DNA of 35,721 nt, taken from assembly GCA_949297275.1 (NCBI GenBank), contig CASFQR010000023.1, forward strand, positions 1-35,721, read 5' to 3'. Position 1 is the first letter of the stretch. The number at the start of each line of letters is the position of its first letter. The stretch comes from an uncultured bacterium. GTDB lineage: Bacteria; Bacillota_I; Bacilli_A; RFN20; CAG-826. Position numbers and translations under genes: made by a program. Below, piece after piece: positions 1 through 29,825 of the stretch. The notes under the pieces were generated by a model. The model made no database searches. It was not told where the DNA came from and worked only from the letters and a program-made list of their open reading frames with translations.

Positions 1-165
1 AATAAATGCTTATTCTTCAAGTGAATGCTTATTCATTAATTAACTAAAAAGAAAGGAAGTATTTATGAGAAAAAATAATTTCTTAAAAGTAGGCTTAGTC
101 GGCTTATTTTCTTTAATGCTTACAATTGGAGTTAATAAAGGCATTGAAGTAAAAGAAGTTAAAGC
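1..165 (+). repeat. Left arm of surface-protein leader inverted repeat
   Basis: This stretch (64 bp upstream DNA plus the first 33-34 codons) recurs in inverted orientation at 3963-4127. The first 99 bases are identical and only about five scattered differences follow, all silent in the signal peptide. It contains two copies of AATGCTTATTC (5-15 and 25-35 region, 19-20 bp apart), the second lying inside the imperfect palindrome TGAATGCTTATTCA (22-35), and an SD AAAGGAAG at 52-59. The repeat reaches the window edge, so its true outer end is not visible. Confidence 0.9.
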
Positions 166-1777
166 CGCTGATGAAGTTGCGCTTATAGGTAAAACTGAAA
201 CAATTGTTACAGACTCCTCTTATTCAACCTATAATGATGATAACTGGGTTTTAACTTTTGGCGGAAACAATCAATCGGGCGGCACAAATTCTAAAAACCG
301 TAGTAAATGCAAATTAACCGGCAATAGTGTAAAGTACGCTGATGGAACAAATGTGACAACATCCGATACCGCCTTTGCCTTAGCAACAAAAAGTTCCTAT
401 GAAAATATTAGTCGTGTAACCGTTCAATATACCGGAGGTAGTTATTCAGGAGCTCTGCTTTACTTAAATTATTCGAATGATGGCACTAACTACATACCTG
501 TTTCATTAACTAGCGGCACGCAAGGAATGGAAGCAAACGCCACCAATACAATATATGAAATGGATTTTGAACCAATAACTGATGCCTCTTATTTTGCTAT
601 TATTTTTAAAGATACTGGGAGTTCGGGTAATTTTAGATTGGATTATATTACTGTTACTTTATATTCAGAATTGTATGAACAAGAAGGCACAGTTACTGGC
701 ATTAATTTAGATGCATCAACAATGCCGACCGAAGTTTATACAGGAAGTCAATGGGATACATCTGGTATTATTGTAACTGCTAGTTATGATGATAATAGTA
801 CCGCAAATGTTACTACCTTTAGCGAAATTACTTTAAACCCTGAAGTAGCACCTCTAACTACTGGTGAAACAACTGTAACTGTTACTGCATCCTATGAGAC
901 ATTTACTGCTAGTAAACAATTTACCGTTAATGTGATAGAAGCACCGGTTTATGATGTGGATTTTACTGAAGATGTATCATCTAATCCATTTGACGCGAAT
1001 GGAATAAATTGGGCTTATTATATGGATGCAGGTAAAATATCTAATTTTGATAATACAAAAGGTTTACATTTTGGCACAAACGATAACCCATGTGGAAAGG
1101 TACAATTAATATCAGATGCTTTCATTGCTCCAGAAAGTGGTGAAACATCAATTCATCGCATTAATGTTGAAGCATCAAATGCCTCAAGAAATGATGGCGG
1201 TGTAGAATTAAGTGTTTATGTAAATGATGTTAAGATTGGTGAAACCAAAACAATATCTAGTAGTGCCTCTACAATGTATTCTTTTGAAACAAATGAACCG
1301 TTAATGGGGCAAATTAAAATTGTTTTAGAAGATAAATCAAACGATCCAGCAGCAATGTATATCAAAGGTTTTGAGGTATATGCAAACGTTGATGAAACTG
1401 GCACCTTATTAATGCCTATCGTCAATGCTTTAAGCCAATTTAAGACTTGCGAAATTCAAGCTCAAGATGAATCGTTTGGTACTTTCCTAAATAGTCATCA
1501 AACCACCATTGAAGAACATAGCAATGTTTTAAGTGGCGTAAAAATTTATGACTACGAATCAGAAAAAACTGATTATACTGGCCCGAAGACTTTTGTGACC
1601 GACTTTATGAGTAAATATAACCTTTGTTTACAAAGATATAATAATGTAGCAACAAGTCCAGTGCTTCAACCAATGAATTCTAATAATATTATTCCAATCG
1701 CGATAGTTATGGTGGCAATTTCTAGCTTAATGATTCTAAGTATTGGCTTAGTTATTAGAAAAAGAAAAGGCAATTAA
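65..1777 (+). CDS. Secreted, C-terminally membrane-anchored Ig-like (Big_3) surface protein
   Basis: A 570-residue protein with an N-terminal signal peptide (basic residues 2-8, hydrophobic 9-23, likely cleavage after VKA at 32-34). A beta-rich domain spans about 38-200. A bacterial Ig-like domain of the Big_3 kind spans about 208-290 (TGINLDASTMPTEVYTGSQW). A second beta-rich domain covers about 295-445, and a more helical stretch about 450-530. The C-terminus is one hydrophobic segment (about 542-563) followed by RKRK, with no LPXTG sequence, so anchoring is probably by the transmembrane helix. The SD AAAGGAAG sits 5 nt before ATG. It converges with a paralogous gene at 1847-4063 that has the same signal peptide and the same Big_3 start. 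A role in adhesion or ligand binding is inferred from architecture only; no enzyme motif was seen. Confidence 0.85.
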   Translation: MRKNNFLKVGLVGLFSLMLTIGVNKGIEVKEVKAADEVALIGKTETIVTDSSYSTYNDDNWVLTFGGNNQSGGTNSKNRSKCKLTGNSVKYADGTNVTTSDTAFALATKSSYENISRVTVQYTGGSYSGALLYLNYSNDGTNYIPVSLTSGTQGMEANATNTIYEMDFEPITDASYFAIIFKDTGSSGNFRLDYITVTLYSELYEQEGTVTGINLDASTMPTEVYTGSQWDTSGIIVTASYDDNSTANVTTFSEITLNPEVAPLTTGETTVTVTASYETFTASKQFTVNVIEAPVYDVDFTEDVSSNPFDANGINWAYYMDAGKISNFDNTKGLHFGTNDNPCGKVQLISDAFIAPESGETSIHRINVEASNASRNDGGVELSVYVNDVKIGETKTISSSASTMYSFETNEPLMGQIKIVLEDKSNDPAAMYIKGFEVYANVDETGTLLMPIVNALSQFKTCEIQAQDESFGTFLNSHQTTIEEHSNVLSGVKIYDYESEKTDYTGPKTFVTDFMSKYNLCLQRYNNVATSPVLQPMNSNNIIPIAIVMVAISSLMILSIGLVIRKRKGN

Positions 1778-1795
1778 TTAAAATTCTATTCATTT

Positions 1796-1824
1796 AAAAA
1801 TGGTGGCAATTTGCCACCATTTTT
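1796..1824. terminator. Bidirectional intrinsic terminator
   Basis: A near-perfect inverted repeat with arms AAAAATGGTGGCAA and TTGCCACCATTTTT. It has A-runs on one side and T-runs on the other, so it can end transcription from both converging surface-protein genes. Confidence 0.9.
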
Positions 1825-1846
1825 ATGTAAAACCTAAATATTTTTA

Positions 1847-4063
1847 TTAATTTGTTTTGCGTTTGCGCATGACAATGAACACTAAGGCGGCTAGTAAAAG
1901 CAAGGCTGAAGTAACAACAGTAATAATGATAATATTGTTATTGTTGTTAACTAAATTTAATGCATTACTCGCACTGACGATTTGATTATTTTCATCAAAT
2001 GTATCACCGTTAGCACTTGCCCAAGCACGTAATCTAGCGTACGGTTGAGCATATTTTTCATCACTAACAAATGTCACTCGTTGGGTGTCGGTTAATAAAG
2101 CATATGCTTGTTTAGCTAAATCATACCAACCTTCAGTGATACATAAACCAGTACCTGCTTCTTCATAGCTAACTTCGGTATGCATTACTCTATCAACAAA
2201 TTTGTCGAGTACATCTACATCACTATAAACTTTCGTAATAACCCCATTTAATTCTTTTGTAGTTCCAAAATCTAGTCTAAAAACAAGCATTTCAATAACA
2301 TCACCAACTACTAATGAATTAGTCGTTGAGTTAGTTAAGAAATCTTGAGGATTATTAAATACATATTCACCAGTTTTGTTATCGAATTTTAAGGCTGATG
2401 TAGTGACTGTCGAACCAAAGACCAAAATTGATTTGCTACTATCGACAAAGTCGGCAATATGAATATTACCATATTTAGTTGGATCAGTGCTGTCATCATA
2501 TTGGCCTAAGATGCTAATACGTCCAGTTACACGATAAATAACTGTGTTATTAGCTTCAGTATTTAAAATATCTGCAACTTCAATATCAATTGGATCTGGT
2601 TCAGCAAATAAAACAGTTATATTAACAAAATCAGAATAGATTACATCGTTGACAGTTATTGAGGCAGTAATTTTCGCTATACCACTAGAAATACCAGTTA
2701 CTATACCATCTTGAGTTACGGTTGCAATCTTATCGTTTTCACTACTCCAAACAACTGTTACATCAGGGGCATTTAAAACCGATGCATAAAGTTTGATTGT
2801 TTCATTAACATCAACTTCTGTAACGCTGCTTTCAATAGTAACTATTGGAGATGAGGCATCTTGATATTCAACAGTTATTGAATTTAGGTATAACGAATTA
2901 ACAGTTGCAGCAACTTCGATTACTACACTTTCACCAGTTTGAATTGTATATTTCGTTTCAATTTTTGGTGTGATATCAATGAAATTTGATGAATATCCAG
3001 TTGAACCAGGGAAATTAGCAAATGTTGTTGCTGACAAAAAATATAATGTAGTTGAACCAGCAGTTATATTAATGCTTCCTGAACCTGCACTTTTATTTGA
3101 TTTCATTGATAATGTTACATTCTTAATTTGATAGCCATCATATCCTTGTAAAGTGAGAGTTGATGAATGACCTTTTGTCATTTGATAAAGGGTATTATAA
3201 GTATTTTTGAATGTCGCTGATGAATTTTCTGGCGGATTTCCTAATGTATCGACAGCACTTGTAGTTGTGATTTTATATTCTGCAATTAAAGGTTCATTAA
3301 GAACATTTATATTAAAAGTTTTACTAGCAGTTTTATCTTTATAAGAAGCGTTGATCGTTAACACCATCATGCCAATGGTTGAAGGCACTGTTTCCGGATT
3401 AAAGTTTATTGTGCATTGTGAAGTTACATCGCTAGTGGAGCCTTCGTCGTATGTCGCAGTAACTTTAATGCCTGATGTATCCCATTGACCGCCTGCATAA
3501 ACTTCGGTTGGCATTGTTGAATCATCTAAACTGATTCCAGTCAAAACAGCATCTTCCGAAATTGTTGAGCAATATGTTACATCGATTTTTGTGATTTGGT
3601 TTGTGGCCGCTGGATTACTAATTTCAACGCTTGTACAATCTGTTAAATCTGTTGTATACACAGAATTATTTTGCGTCCATCCTTCGGATACACTGTTCAT
3701 AGTCACGCTTCCATCAGCTGTTAATTTAACCTCTTTTAAATAAAAATTTTCCTCTACTGATATAGTAATTTTACCAGAGCCCGTTTTGTAAAAGCGCCAC
3801 GAACTATTCTTAGCATAATATTTGCAGTTATGTCCAGTGCCAGATCCTACAATTGTTACCACTCCTTGTGTAATTCCGGGGGCTTGACCAGATACTTCGG
3901 CATCATTCCATCCGTATTGATTTGCTATTTCTGAAATAACAAAACTTTCCACTAAATCTTCTGCCTTAACTTCTTTAACTTCAATGCCTTTATTAACTCC
4001 AATCGTAAGCATTAAAGAGAATAAGCCAACTAAGCCTACTTTTAAGAAATTATTTTTTCTCAT
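1847..4063 (-). CDS. Secreted, membrane-anchored surface protein with Big_3 and Big_2 Ig-like domains
   Basis: A 738-residue paralog of the protein at 65-1777. The first 34 residues (signal peptide) are identical. A beta domain covers about 40-168 and Big_3 about 173-255 (TGISLDDSTMPTEVYAGGQW, closely matching the partner). A further beta domain covers about 260-410. A Big_2-like domain covers about 413-490 (VVWSSENDKIATV, GIVTGISSGIAKITA). An OB-fold-like segment covers about 500-620, followed by a helical C-terminal region and one TM helix with RKRK at the end. No LPXTG is present. The gene is convergent with its paralog and shares a terminator with it. Upstream DNA back to 4127 is identical to that of the partner, so the two are expected to be regulated alike. 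Function is unknown; a cell-surface location is inferred. Confidence 0.85.
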   Translation of the reverse strand: MRKNNFLKVGLVGLFSLMLTIGVNKGIEVKEVKAEDLVESFVISEIANQYGWNDAEVSGQAPGITQGVVTIVGSGTGHNCKYYAKNSSWRFYKTGSGKITISVEENFYLKEVKLTADGSVTMNSVSEGWTQNNSVYTTDLTDCTSVEISNPAATNQITKIDVTYCSTISEDAVLTGISLDDSTMPTEVYAGGQWDTSGIKVTATYDEGSTSDVTSQCTINFNPETVPSTIGMMVLTINASYKDKTASKTFNINVLNEPLIAEYKITTTSAVDTLGNPPENSSATFKNTYNTLYQMTKGHSSTLTLQGYDGYQIKNVTLSMKSNKSAGSGSINITAGSTTLYFLSATTFANFPGSTGYSSNFIDITPKIETKYTIQTGESVVIEVAATVNSLYLNSITVEYQDASSPIVTIESSVTEVDVNETIKLYASVLNAPDVTVVWSSENDKIATVTQDGIVTGISSGIAKITASITVNDVIYSDFVNITVLFAEPDPIDIEVADILNTEANNTVIYRVTGRISILGQYDDSTDPTKYGNIHIADFVDSSKSILVFGSTVTTSALKFDNKTGEYVFNNPQDFLTNSTTNSLVVGDVIEMLVFRLDFGTTKELNGVITKVYSDVDVLDKFVDRVMHTEVSYEEAGTGLCITEGWYDLAKQAYALLTDTQRVTFVSDEKYAQPYARLRAWASANGDTFDENNQIVSASNALNLVNNNNNIIIITVVTSALLLLAALVFIVMRKRKTN

Positions 4064-4127
4064 AAATACTTCCTTTCTTTTTAGTTAATTAATGAATAAG
4101 CATTCACTTGAAGAATAAGCATTTATT
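3963..4127 (-). repeat. Right arm of surface-protein leader inverted repeat
   Basis: Reverse complement of 1-165 with about five mismatches, all at synonymous positions in the signal-peptide codons. The 64 bp upstream of the start codon is identical in both arms. The arms enclose about 3.8 kb holding both mature coding regions and their shared terminator. Confidence 0.9.
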
Positions 4128-4215
4128 TTCCTATTCTGTTTTCTATTAAATTAAGTTTAAAAATACTTGATTTTTATATAAATTAATATAATTAATTATT
4201 ATTGAGGTTAAGGCG

Positions 4216-4923
4216 ATGAATAAAGAATTAGTAATCTTTGAAAACGTTAACAAAATATATGAATTAGGTGGCACCAAGATATACGCTAATAAGAATTTAT
4301 CTTTTAAAATATTAGAAGGTGAATTCTGCGTAATTGTTGGGCCAAGTGGTTCAGGTAAGACAACCACTTTAAACCTTTTAGGTGGCATGGATAAACTTAC
4401 TAGTGGTCATATTATTGTTGATAATGAAGATATCTCTTTATTCAATGATAAAAAATTAACTTTATATCGTCGCGATTCGGTAGGTTTTGTTTTCCAATTT
4501 TATAATTTAATGCCAAATTTAACTGCGTTAGATAATGTTGATATTTCTTCTGAAATCTGTTCTAGCCCTTTAGATAGTAAAGAAGTTTTAAATGAAGTAG
4601 GGCTAGGTGATCGTATACATAATTTCCCTAGCCAACTTTCGGGCGGCGAACAACAAAGAGTCTCCATTGCGCGTGCAATTGCTAAGAATCCTAAATTATT
4701 ATTATGTGATGAACCCACCGGAGCGCTTGATTATCAAACTGGTAAATTAATTTTAAGATTATTATTTGATGTTTGTAAAAATAATCATAAGACCGTGATT
4801 ATTATTACCCATAACTCTGCTCTAACTAGCATGGCGGATCATGTTATTCATTTACGAAACGGGGAAGTAGTTGCCGAAGAATATAACGAACATCCCACCC
4901 CAATTGAAGAAATCGAATGGTAA
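4216..4923 (+). CDS. ABC transporter ATP-binding protein (MacB/LolD type)
   Basis: A 235-residue nucleotide-binding subunit. Walker A GPSGSGKT is at 42-49, the Q-loop region [10 protein letters not shown] near 93, the signature LSGGEQQ at 141-147, Walker B plus D-loop DEPTGALD at 165-172, and the switch histidine in IIITHN near 199. The sequence type ([20 protein letters not shown]) is that of ATPases paired with FtsX-like permeases, and such a permease follows 4 bp downstream. These complexes are mechanotransmitters or exporters of peptides, lipoproteins or drugs; the substrate cannot be read from sequence. GAGG lies about 10 nt before the ATG and a TATAAT is at 4187-4192. Confidence 0.93.
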
Positions 4924-25728: not shown

Positions 25729-26118
25729 TCAGTCCTCATCGCTTTTTCCATGGTCAATTACCCATTGCAAAAGGCCGTCATAATCAATTTCACCGGCTGC
25801 TACGTTTAAAAAAACCGAAGCCAGTTCTTCTTGCGTATAGAAAAGCGAAACTCCGTTTAATGCAAGAAACACGAGCATTGCGTGTGCACCGATTCGCTTG
25901 TTGCCATCTAAGAAAGGGTGATTTTGCACCAACCCGCAGGCTAGACGCGCCGCTTTCTGATACACGGATTGAAATAATTCGGTTGAATCAAAGGTTTGGA
26001 ACGGAGCAGCGATAGCCGAATCTAAAAGTCCCTCATCCCGCAAACCATCCAAACCTCCCGTTTCCATTACCAAAGCATGGTGCATAGCGATGATTTGTTG
26101 TTTGGAAAGGACAATCAC
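25729..26118 (-). CDS. doc: Doc-type (Fic fold) toxin of a toxin-antitoxin pair
   Basis: A 129-residue protein of the death-on-curing family. The active-site motif HPFLDGNKRIGA is at 67-78; in studied Doc proteins this fold phosphorylates elongation factor Tu and stops translation. The start is a GTG that overlaps the antitoxin stop codon (GTGA at 26115-26118), a standard coupled toxin-antitoxin arrangement. Codon choice and GC content are visibly higher than in neighbours, which suggests transfer. The motif is complete, so the toxin looks functional. Confidence 0.93.
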   Translation of the reverse strand: MIVLSKQQIIAMHHALVMETGGLDGLRDEGLLDSAIAAPFQTFDSTELFQSVYQKAARLACGLVQNHPFLDGNKRIGAHAMLVFLALNGVSLFYTQEELASVFLNVAAGEIDYDGLLQWVIDHGKSDED

Positions 26119-26372
26119 TTCGCCAATTCCTCATAAGCTGTACGATTTTTTTCAATAAATTGCTTGGAGAGTTTTTCTACGGAACTATCTGTTGCCATTT
26201 GCATCTTAGTTCCTGTGCGCTTAATCTCAAAAGGAATACGTTGTTCCCGAACAGCTTGCTTCGCAAACATGGTAATGGCAGCGCTTAAAGAAAGTCCGAG
26301 ATCGCTAAACAATTCATCAGCTTGGGCTTTAAGCTCTTCATCCATGCGGATTGTAACATTAATGTTAGCCAT
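26115..26372 (-). CDS. RelB/DinJ-type antitoxin
   Basis: An 85-residue protein with an N-terminal ribbon-helix-helix DNA-binding part (MANINVTIRMDEELKAQADE, then LGLSLSAAITMFAKQAV) and a C-terminal toxin-neutralising tail. RelB/DinJ antitoxins usually pair with RelE/YafQ toxins; pairing with Doc is a mixed combination also seen in nature. AGGAGGTG lies 5 nt before the ATG at 26372; a longer frame from 26435 would run into the promoter. The antitoxin probably represses its own promoter. Confidence 0.92.
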   Translation of the reverse strand: MANINVTIRMDEELKAQADELFSDLGLSLSAAITMFAKQAVREQRIPFEIKRTGTKMQMATDSSVEKLSKQFIEKNRTAYEELAK

Positions 26373-26402
26373 AAAAACACCTCCTATTCGAATTACTTCT
26401 AC

Positions 26403-26431
26403 ATTATACAGCAAAACGAATGATTTAACAA
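26403..26431 (-). promoter_or_regulatory. Promoter of the antitoxin-toxin operon
   Basis: On the minus strand TTGTTA, a 17-bp spacer and TATAAT, the -10 preceded by TG. It lies about 30 bp upstream of the antitoxin ATG. Confidence 0.8.
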
Positions 26432-26663
26432 TCATATTACATAATAATTATATGTATTTTATTTGCAATGCAATGAATTTCAACAGCGGAAAGAGCAGAC
26501 ACCTTACTAATAAGTTAATAAGCATTTTGCACAAATTAATAAGCTTCGACAACTCATAATTGACATCCTTATCCATAATTAAAATCGAGATGCAGTGCTC
26601 GAGATTTTGAGTGTGTCATATTTCTTGCCGCTGAGGATACTACAAAAATCTTATACTACAGCC
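26432..26663. other. Gene-free AT-rich spacer
   Basis: No convincing gene. An imperfect hairpin with AAAATCGAG and CTCGAGATTTT arms is at 26581-26608. Confidence 0.5.
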
Positions 26664-27153: not shown

Positions 27154-27426
27154 GGTATCATTTTTCTAGTAGAGAAACGTTTATTTAGTAGGATTTCATT
27201 TTTCTAGTAGAACCAATTTCTTAAAATCCGTTGGTTCAAATCAATTTTTCTCTACTAGCAAAACGCTGAAAATTAAAAAATGCCCGATTTCTCGAGCAAA
27301 TATCATTCACTTCGATTCCTTTACTTTGTATCAAAGTGATAGTTATAAGATGTCTTTGCGCTATCGCATTGATACAAAACGCGACCCCTACTAGCAAAAT
27401 GAAACCCTTACTAGATAAACGATACC
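27154..27426. mobile_element. 273-bp MITE-like element with GGTATC ends
   Basis: The left end starts GGTATCATTTTTCTAGTAG. The right end, read on the minus strand, starts GGTATCGTTTATCTAGTAA, matching 16 of 19 positions. CTAGTAG motifs recur at 27166, 27204, and inverted at 27252, 27388 and 27408. A hairpin GTATCAAAGTGATAG / CTATCGCATTGATAC is at 27328-27375. No transposase is encoded, so it looks like a non-autonomous element. A partial copy lies at 29461-29652 in the same orientation. It ends 11 bp from the kinase gene stop codon. Confidence 0.6.
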
Positions 27427-27968: not shown

Positions 27969-29318
27969 TTAACTCCTTGTTTTTTTAATAACTTCCCAAT
28001 ATCCGTATTGATTGCTGCCAACCCTTATTAGCATCTTTTTATCAACAAGTTTATCAGTAATTCTTTGAACAGTTCTTATCGTTTTGTTTATTTTCATAGC
28101 AATTTCTTTTCTAGTAATCTTTGGATTATTTTCTATTAAATCAAATACTTCTTGTTCAATTTTATTAAGTGAAGAAAAAGCAGTGACATTAGGAGTGACA
28201 AATGCAGTGACATTCGTTTTTCTGTTAAAAGTAAAATAAAAACCATAGGCAGTATTTTCGCTAGACCAACTAATATTCTTTTCAGAACATGAATCATTCA
28301 TTCTTTTGAAACCAGTTCCAGATTTTTCAACATCTTTACATCTATATAAAACATCTAAAATAATTGGGTTTCTTTTAATCGAGGAAAGATCCTTCTCAAT
28401 AAAATCATTTGGTGTTAATCCGTCAGGAAAAGAACCAGGATTAAATATTGTTAATTTATTTGGGTGAATATTTATTTCAATTTCTGGAGTTGGATTATAG
28501 ATTGCATGAGCAAAAGCGTTTATTAAAATTTCTCTTATTGCCCTTAGCGGAATTTCTGGAGTTTCTTTTCTAACTAAACCTATTTCAATATCCCAGTTAA
28601 TATGGTTAAGAATATAAATCATGCCTTCACGAATCAAATTATAAATATTTCCTTTAATCACTTTTAAATCAGTAAAAGTAATTTTACTATCTGTTGCAAA
28701 ACAAGCTAATTTAAGTGAGATATTTGCTTTTTTTCCAAAAAGAATATTTGCGGCGTTATTTATAACTCCATTGTGAAATAAATCTAAAATTGTTAACAAT
28801 TGCTCTTTATCATATTTATCAAGTGCAAGTCTTCCACAATTAACAGCTTCGCCATAATATTCTTTTAAAGCATCATCATCGATATCTTCAATCGCAATGG
28901 ATGATTTTTCTTTTTCCCAACTATTTGAATAATCCTCCTCTTTGATTAATTTTATAAGTTCATTTCTTGTCATATGTCTATTTTGAGTTCCAACTCGAAT
29001 TAAAAACCTGCCAAAAGCAGAATAGGGTCTATGATTCCCATAGAAAGAAACTTCTATAATTTCTTTGCTTTCATATACAATTCGTTCAACTGTCGGAATA
29101 ATTCTTGGTTCGATATCTCTTAAGATTGAATCAGTAAGATTTCTAATAGTCGAGTCTGAAATTACTTGTCCCTTCAATTCACCATTATCGAAAACTCCAA
29201 ATAATACTTTTCCATAGCCATGCTTATTCAAAATTGCGCCAATCGATTCAATCGCTTGATGCAATTCAGAAGTTGATTCTTTAAATTCTAAGATTTCACT
29301 TTCTTTGCCAAAATTCAT
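27969..29318 (-). CDS. AlbA_2 / GHKL 'RecG-like' transcriptional regulator
   Basis: A 449-residue protein. N-terminal AlbA_2 (DUF4325-like Schlafen-type) domain: ESEILEFKESTSELHQAIES and KVLFGVFDNGELKGQ. Central region leads to a GHKL-like ATPase fold with AIREILINAFAHAIY (N-box) and GTGFKRM. Then a repetitive linker NVTAFVTPNVTAF (369-381) and a C-terminal winged helix (383-449, ITRKEIAMKINKTIRTVQRI). Often misnamed ATP-dependent helicase RecG-like; no helicase motifs are present. AGGAGG lies 6 nt before ATG 29318; the longer frame to 29468 lacks an SD. It is followed directly by the kinase gene. Triple GTGACA repeats lie both upstream and inside the linker-coding DNA. Confidence 0.88.
   Translation of the reverse strand: MNFGKESEILEFKESTSELHQAIESIGAILNKHGYGKVLFGVFDNGELKGQVISDSTIRNLTDSILRDIEPRIIPTVERIVYESKEIIEVSFYGNHRPYSAFGRFLIRVGTQNRHMTRNELIKLIKEEDYSNSWEKEKSSIAIEDIDDDALKEYYGEAVNCGRLALDKYDKEQLLTILDLFHNGVINNAANILFGKKANISLKLACFATDSKITFTDLKVIKGNIYNLIREGMIYILNHINWDIEIGLVRKETPEIPLRAIREILINAFAHAIYNPTPEIEINIHPNKLTIFNPGSFPDGLTPNDFIEKDLSSIKRNPIILDVLYRCKDVEKSGTGFKRMNDSCSEKNISWSSENTAYGFYFTFNRKTNVTAFVTPNVTAFSSLNKIEQEVFDLIENNPKITRKEIAMKINKTIRTVQRITDKLVDKKMLIRVGSNQYGYWEVIKKTRS
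28183..28214 (+). repeat. In-gene copy of the GTGACA iteron array
   Basis: GTGACA at 28183, 28195 and 28207, exactly 12 bp apart. The 32-bp unit is the perfect reverse complement of the one at 29347-29378. It encodes the linker NVTAFVTPNVTAF of the regulator on the minus strand; 12 bp equals four codons, which explains the four-residue peptide repeat. Confidence 0.9.
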
Positions 29319-29346
29319 TCTGCATCCTCCTAGGAATATTGTAACA

Positions 29347-29378
29347 AATGTCACTGCATTTGTCACTCCTAATGTCAC
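29347..29378 (-). promoter_or_regulatory. Upstream GTGACA iteron array of the regulator gene
   Basis: On the minus strand GTGACA three times with 12-bp spacing (plus-strand TGTCAC at 29349, 29361 and 29373), with weaker neighbours TGTAAC (29340) and TATCAC (29387). It lies between 29 and 60 bp upstream of the ATG, downstream of a possible minus-strand TATAGT near 29397-29402, so binding would block transcription. Likely the operator of the winged-helix regulator (inference). Confidence 0.65.
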
Positions 29379-29460
29379 CGCATTTTTATCACCGAAACTA
29401 TAATTATTTTTGCTCAAATAGTAATTGTTGTAAGAATATATAAAGATGACAATAAATAAA

Positions 29461-29652
29461 GGTATCATTTTTCTAGTAGAGAAACGTTTATTTAGTAGGC
29501 TTTCATTTTTCTAGTGGAAACAAAATTTAAAAATCCGTCGGTTTGAACCAGTTTTTATCTACTAGCAAAACGCTCAAAATTAAAAAATGCTCGATTTCTC
29601 GAGCAAATATATTTATCTTGACACCATTTGTTTGTATCATAGCGATAGTTTA
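29461..29652. repeat. Partial second copy of the 27154 element
   Basis: Starts GGTATCATTTTTCTAGTAGA, matches 27154-27345 over most of its length in the same orientation, and keeps the GTATCATAGCGATAG left hairpin arm. The right end is missing: the copy stops where tRNA-Leu begins (encoded CCA at 29658-29660). Confidence 0.85.
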
Positions 29653-29657
29653 AAGTG

Positions 29658-29741
29658 TGGTGGGGATAACAAGACTTGAACTTGCACGAATTTCTTCACT
29701 GGATTCTAAGTCCAGCGCGTCTGCCATTCCGCCATATCCCC
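29658..29741 (-). tRNA. tRNA-Leu(TAG)
   Basis: Class II tRNA with a long variable arm. Acceptor GGGGATA pairs with TATCCCC, the D-arm contains GGCGGAATGGCAGACGC, and the anticodon loop CTTAGAA gives TAG (plus-strand 29706-29708). The T-arm contains AGTTCAAGTCT, and CCA is encoded. Confidence 0.95.
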
Positions 29742-29750
29742 GTTAAAAAA

Positions 29751-29825
<75 letters not shown>

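Follow-up and report, generated by a model that had tools for sequence, protein, structure and literature searches.

An inverted pair of surface-protein genes sharing a 5' untranslated element as a proposed site-specific inversion switch in an uncultured Bacilli lineage

Results

The window, which is the whole stretch of DNA analysed (35,721 nucleotides), is the entire contig C23 of a 1.04-Mb assembly in 38 contigs (genome G000), and its base 1 is the contig end (G000:C23:1). Two surface-protein genes, convergent in the map of open reading frames (ORFs), lie at this end next to an ABC-transporter gene, and the region carries the following features.

1-64 (+): upstream element copy 1, a 5'UTR with a Shine-Dalgarno sequence (GAAAGGAAG), identical to copy 2 and beginning at the contig start
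28-51 (unstranded): weak candidate crossover dyad with the halves CTTATTCATTAA and TTAACTAAAAAG, in which 9 of 12 positions pair; copies 1 and 2 both carry it, and copy 3 has a near-identical form
65-166 (+): signal-peptide part of gene 1 (MRKNNFLKVGLVGLFSLMLTIGVNKGIEVKEVKA), encoding the same protein as that of gene 2
65-1777 (+): gene 1 (ORF), a 570-aa secreted surface protein with Big_3 (Pfam, 2.3e-4), a C-terminal membrane segment and a basic tail
1795-1825 (unstranded): bidirectional intrinsic terminator between the convergent genes, a 15-bp perfect inverted repeat (fold z -5.3 and -4.5 on the two strands)
1847-4063 (-): gene 2 (ORF), a 738-aa secreted surface protein with Big_2 (Pfam, 4.9e-9) and a Big_3-like domain, a C-terminal membrane segment and a basic tail
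3962-4063 (-): signal-peptide part of gene 2, protein identical to that of gene 1
4064-4127 (-): upstream element copy 2, from the repeat search and alignment to copy 1
4128-4215 (unstranded): outer flank of copy 2, common to the divergent ABC-transporter gene; G002, a sister species, has an insertion of about 140 bp at this point that includes a 42-bp promoter-like block
4216-4923 (+): ABC-transporter ATPase (Pfam), a neighbour outside the proposed switch

A repeat search of the window placed inverted arms at 1-177 and 3951-4127, and BLAST aligned 1-165 with 3963-4127 at 97% identity (E 1.5e-75). The first mismatch between copies 1 and 2 falls at base 100, which bears out the claim of the first-pass annotation that the arms are identical over their first 99 bases. 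The leader mismatches, at positions 100, 109, 124, 151, 163 and 166, are all silent third-position changes (V, F, T, V, K and A), and with six of 34 codons changed and none of them non-synonymous, the claim that only silent changes separate the coding parts also holds. The mature parts are only 28.5% identical, with Big_3 in gene 1 and Big_2 plus a Big_3-like domain in gene 2, in agreement with the earlier statement that the mature proteins differ; a Big_3-like stretch common to both genes was nevertheless picked up by the repeat search (695-792 and 3444-3541, 81%). The hairpin at 1795-1825 reads as a structure able to terminate transcription arriving from both sides. No orthologues of genes 1 and 2 were detected in the related genomes G001 and G002.

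Only 64 bp of DNA is visible upstream of gene 1, and its outer flank is missing where the contig starts. Since the contig starts exactly at a repeat, and such ends are typical of assembly breaks, the first ~100 bases might have been copied from an internal repeat during assembly, with the true 5' end of gene 1 lying elsewhere. We regard such an artefact as very improbable, because six silent differences, starting at base 100 and in frame with gene 1, are particular to the arm, and because G002 independently carries the same element behind the promoter-like block P described below.

A genome search for further copies of the element identified a third one on contig C9, 92% identical to copy 1 over bases 11-70 (E 1.3e-18), and the end of contig G002:C74 carries a 100% identical copy over bases 1-70. 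The element was absent from the viral contigs searched. The earlier picture of two copies is thus corrected: copies 1 and 2 are indeed inverted around genes 1 and 2, but the element is not confined to them, and the possibility that these were the only two copies in the genome falls with the copy found before a third surface gene. This gene 3 encodes a 549-aa surface protein with Big_2 and is divergent from a serine recombinase gene. Its mature part is only 25% identical and its leader differs, so that what the three genes have in common is the untranslated stretch of approximately bases 11-70. Hence, the suggestion that the signal-peptide cassette serves as a general leader does not hold, as the genome encodes the leader peptide just twice and gene 3 shares the untranslated part alone. 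Among the three surface genes the UTRs are 92-100% identical, in contrast to 25-29% for the mature parts, and the identity of copies 1 and 2 declines with distance from the UTR into the leader. Because identity decays in this direction and gene 3 shares the UTR alone, we infer that the exchange point lies within approximately bases 11-70.

The recombinase encoded beside copy 3 scored 285.7 bits against NF009949, the 'master DNA invertase Mpi family' (PRK13413), over residues 1-197 of the 203-aa model, and thereby passes the curated NCBIfam equivalog cut-off of 272 bits. It has a Resolvase domain (PF00239, 1.3e-31) with a helix-turn-helix (HTH) tail, its best solved relative is the DNA invertase 4m6f (3.5e-13), and the Ser and Arg motifs of the catalytic region are kept. 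It is thus a serine recombinase and not a tyrosine recombinase (Xer1) as in Vpma proper. The arms of genes 1 and 2 have the length and identity that homologous recombination requires, and rare RecA-dependent inversion together with homogenisation could in principle account for them without a dedicated enzyme. We find this distinctly unlikely, as copy 3 shares just ~60 bp at 92% and yet adjoins an invertase gene, and as the centre of the shared block falls in the UTR instead of in coding DNA.

Close homologues of the recombinase were found in only 6 of 279 genomes of the order but are widespread in other phyla. Several of the genes next to them belong to classes known to undergo inversion, namely surface genes in G029 and restriction-specificity genes in L086, L096 and G106. 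In G029 the homologue follows two divergent surface genes, and a 16-bp inverted repeat bounds the ~100 bp between these (0 of 300 shuffles). In G014 the gene divergent from the invertase is cut by a contig break within its signal peptide. Contig ends less than 300 bp 5' of the homologues were seen at 13 of 79 loci, compared to 1.4 expected. Such breaks at the element or near invertases of this type, far above chance, fit DNA that exists in more than one arrangement, although ordinary repeats can also cause contig breaks.

Loci where an Mpi-type invertase neighbours a split type IIG or an HsdS-like specificity gene lie at L086 8788-10063, L096 889-3384 and L163 2744-3004, in metagenome bins from termite, Saccharibacteria and Bacilli sources; the specificity gene of L086 has inverted arms and a TaqI_C domain, and that of L096 is HsdS-like.

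Contig C9 ends ~215 bp past the recombinase gene, in the 42-bp block P (GGCCGATATTTTCTTTTAAGTTTTTGTTGTTATAAGCATAGA). In G002 three bases separate an identical copy of this block from the same 70-bp element downstream, and the contig there also ends at the start codon of the element. The block was not found elsewhere in the three genomes of the genus. P and the element, together 112 bp, are identical between G000 and G002; the neighbouring ABC gene differs at 38 of 80 fourfold sites, and its flank is conserved at 86 of 88 bp. Because C9 ends in the block that directly precedes the element in G002, C9 probably adjoins the window. The simplest join, resting on this one shared block, would be C9 - TGA - C23 with a gap of ~3 bp, and the recombinase gene would then end ~280 bp from gene 1. 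The recombinase gene adjoins copy 3 directly on C9, and its linkage to the window would rest on the P block. Across the contig gap the locus would then read gene 3 (leftward), element 3, Mpi-type serine invertase (rightward), P, element 1, gene 1 (rightward), terminator, gene 2 (leftward), element 2 and ABC transporter. Elements 1 and 2 are inverted relative to each other around genes 1 and 2, and element 3 would be inverted relative to element 1 if C9 abuts the window. No invertase was detected in G002, though the element is present; the G002 assembly breaks there.

Genome G001 was considered as an empty-site control for the join and gives no synteny proof of it, because there the ABC neighbour is a Cas9/CRISPR locus and the UTR at the position of gene 3 is unrelated, single-copy and at a contig start. 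Upstream of the orthologous ABC transporter (G001:C2; L076 3119-10684), the place of the surface genes is taken by a Cas9-like gene together with a CRISPR-like array of 66-bp period. Contig G001:C18 begins 59 bp upstream of the surface gene that occupies the position of gene 3 (G001:C18:1-60; L168 1-60), and the UTR at this start holds a dyad, TCCGGATA...TATCCGAA, which occurs once in the genome and might serve a similar switch as another kind of site. A separate observation on G002:C74 is a 1.0-kb tandem duplication (L048 6221-7224 and 7214-8217, 97.5%) inside an FtsX-type permease gene, which forms one 1229-aa open frame and may be real or assembly-made.

An alternative account is that genes 1 and 2 are ordinary inverted paralogues, whose mature parts diverged after duplication while purifying selection, or gene conversion from time to time, kept their 5' ends similar, with no programmed inversion and with the recombinase serving something else. 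The Big_3-like stretch shared by the two genes fits such an origin, and the conservation of the flank of the ABC gene shows that other intergenic DNA at the locus is well conserved too. Against this account stand a 92% identical element before a third gene with a different leader and a mature part of only 25% identity, the direct adjacency of an Mpi-family invertase gene to copy 3, and contigs that end on the element in two genomes and less than 60 bp from the start codon of the gene at the position of gene 3 in a third. We therefore consider this account unlikely, although it is the most probable of the alternatives weighed.

The placement of a promoter was approached through motif searches. 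P contains an extended -10 sequence (TGTTATAAG) ending ~10 bp before the element, and no similar extended -10 was present within 60 bp outside copy 2. The flank of copy 3 also has an extended -10-like site (TGGTATTAT), and the promoter in P may thus not be unique. Sigma-70 scans at the arm gave nothing above shuffles. The earlier idea of a promoter within the arms is accordingly not upheld, as the arm has no promoter-like match and the extended -10 lies in the outer flank. The search for an invertase core site in the element by dyad symmetry gave a best dyad that was not significant, with 24% of shuffles as good. A reading of TGAAT-N4-ATTCA motifs as a TetR-type operator was dropped, there being no evidence of a regulator.

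Discussion

The genome holds three surface genes that share an untranslated leader, and a recombinase of the Mpi family is encoded beside the third copy of that leader; these observations support a switch at the locus. We consider it likely that the locus is a site-specific inversion switch for surface proteins, in which one of the three leader-sharing genes is placed behind the promoter flank P. The elements would be 5'UTRs of ~60 bp (~64 nt) that hold the recombination site, and the extended -10 in P would set the transcription start at the edge of the element. P would then be the main promoter and gene 1 the gene presently expressed. Inversion between elements 1 and 2 would flip ~3.8 kb and exchange genes 1 and 2 behind P, whereas inversion between elements 3 and 1 would flip the short segment with the invertase gene and P, so that P would face gene 3. 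Because the recombination site would lie in the UTR, each exchange would leave an intact gene, every gene retaining its own start codon and signal peptide. Strict control by one promoter may be questioned on account of the promoter-like site at copy 3. Of the first-pass interpretation, the invertible pair thus remains the best explanation, given the third copy and the Mpi-family invertase adjoining it, while the general leader and the arm-borne promoter are not supported.

Tentatively, and with somewhat more doubt than belief, we put forward a three-gene system in which the invertase gene and the promoter flank would flip between two leader sites and a second flip would exchange the convergent genes. 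In this uncultured Bacilli lineage with its small genome, one enzyme would thereby choose among the three surface proteins, and an invertase family that elsewhere switches restriction specificity would have been recruited for this purpose.

Two switches that have been studied by experiment have a closely matching layout, the slp segment of Lactobacillus acidophilus and the vpma locus of Mycoplasma agalactiae. In slp the genes are convergent and have identical 5' ends with a Din-like site. As in slp, two surface genes lie here on one proposed invertible segment, of ~4 kb. Accounts that refer back to Boot et al. 1996 describe slpA and slpB on a 6 kb invertible segment with one gene behind the expression-site promoter, inversion swapping the active and the silent gene (PMC6015585; PMC6176008). 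In contrast to slp, the present locus comprises a third gene with the shared leader and, very probably, a gene for an invertase, the proteins are membrane-anchored and Ig-like and are not S-layer proteins, and switching is proposed from sequence. In the vpma locus of M. agalactiae the 5'UTR and signal peptide are conserved and the mature parts divergent, recombination takes place at sites in the UTR between -1 and -72, and the locus has a single promoter and a recombinase gene (PMC2268961). The present genes resemble both vpma and the vsp genes of M. bovis in their conserved 5'UTR and signal peptide, divergent mature parts and, through the proposed linkage, a recombinase; on the other hand, vpma combines the tyrosine recombinase Xer1 with six lipoproteins, whereas here a serine recombinase of the Mpi family is found with three genes that have no lipobox.

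Mpi of Bacteroides fragilis flips small promoters at 13 distant regions (PMC4747536). The C9 recombinase passes the cut-off of this family and both enzymes would control surface architecture, but the flips proposed here would swap entire genes or a segment in which the invertase gene itself lies. Inversion of type IIG and HsdS specificity genes is comparable in that several close homologues of the recombinase adjoin such genes (L086, L096 and G106), and differs in that the cargo here consists of surface proteins and the sites would lie in the 5'UTR and not inside coding domains. The switching principle is hence already known, and what looks new is an Mpi-type serine invertase with such a layout in such a lineage.

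In one survey of gut communities, Bacillus-like Firmicutes had a median of zero invertons (PMC11892184). If the proposed switch is real, an uncultured Bacilli lineage that is probably host-associated and has a genome of about 1 Mb would show surface switching in the style of antigenic variation, and the vpma/slp layout would have been reached with a different class of recombinase. The switch would also account for metagenome assemblies breaking at such loci, where variable surface genes may be systematically missed.

Further along the window, a RelB-type antitoxin gene (PF04221) precedes a Fic/DOC toxin-like gene (25729-26435, minus strand; PF02661), and the two probably form a toxin-antitoxin pair. 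Direct repeats of 159 nt (27154-27312 and 29461-29619, 88%) and inverted repeats of 50 nt (28169-28218 and 29343-29392, 90%) lie around a gene for a Schlafen AlbA_2 / winged-helix protein (27969-29468), which tRNA genes flank at 29661-29825, and this region looks like a mobile or rearranging islet.
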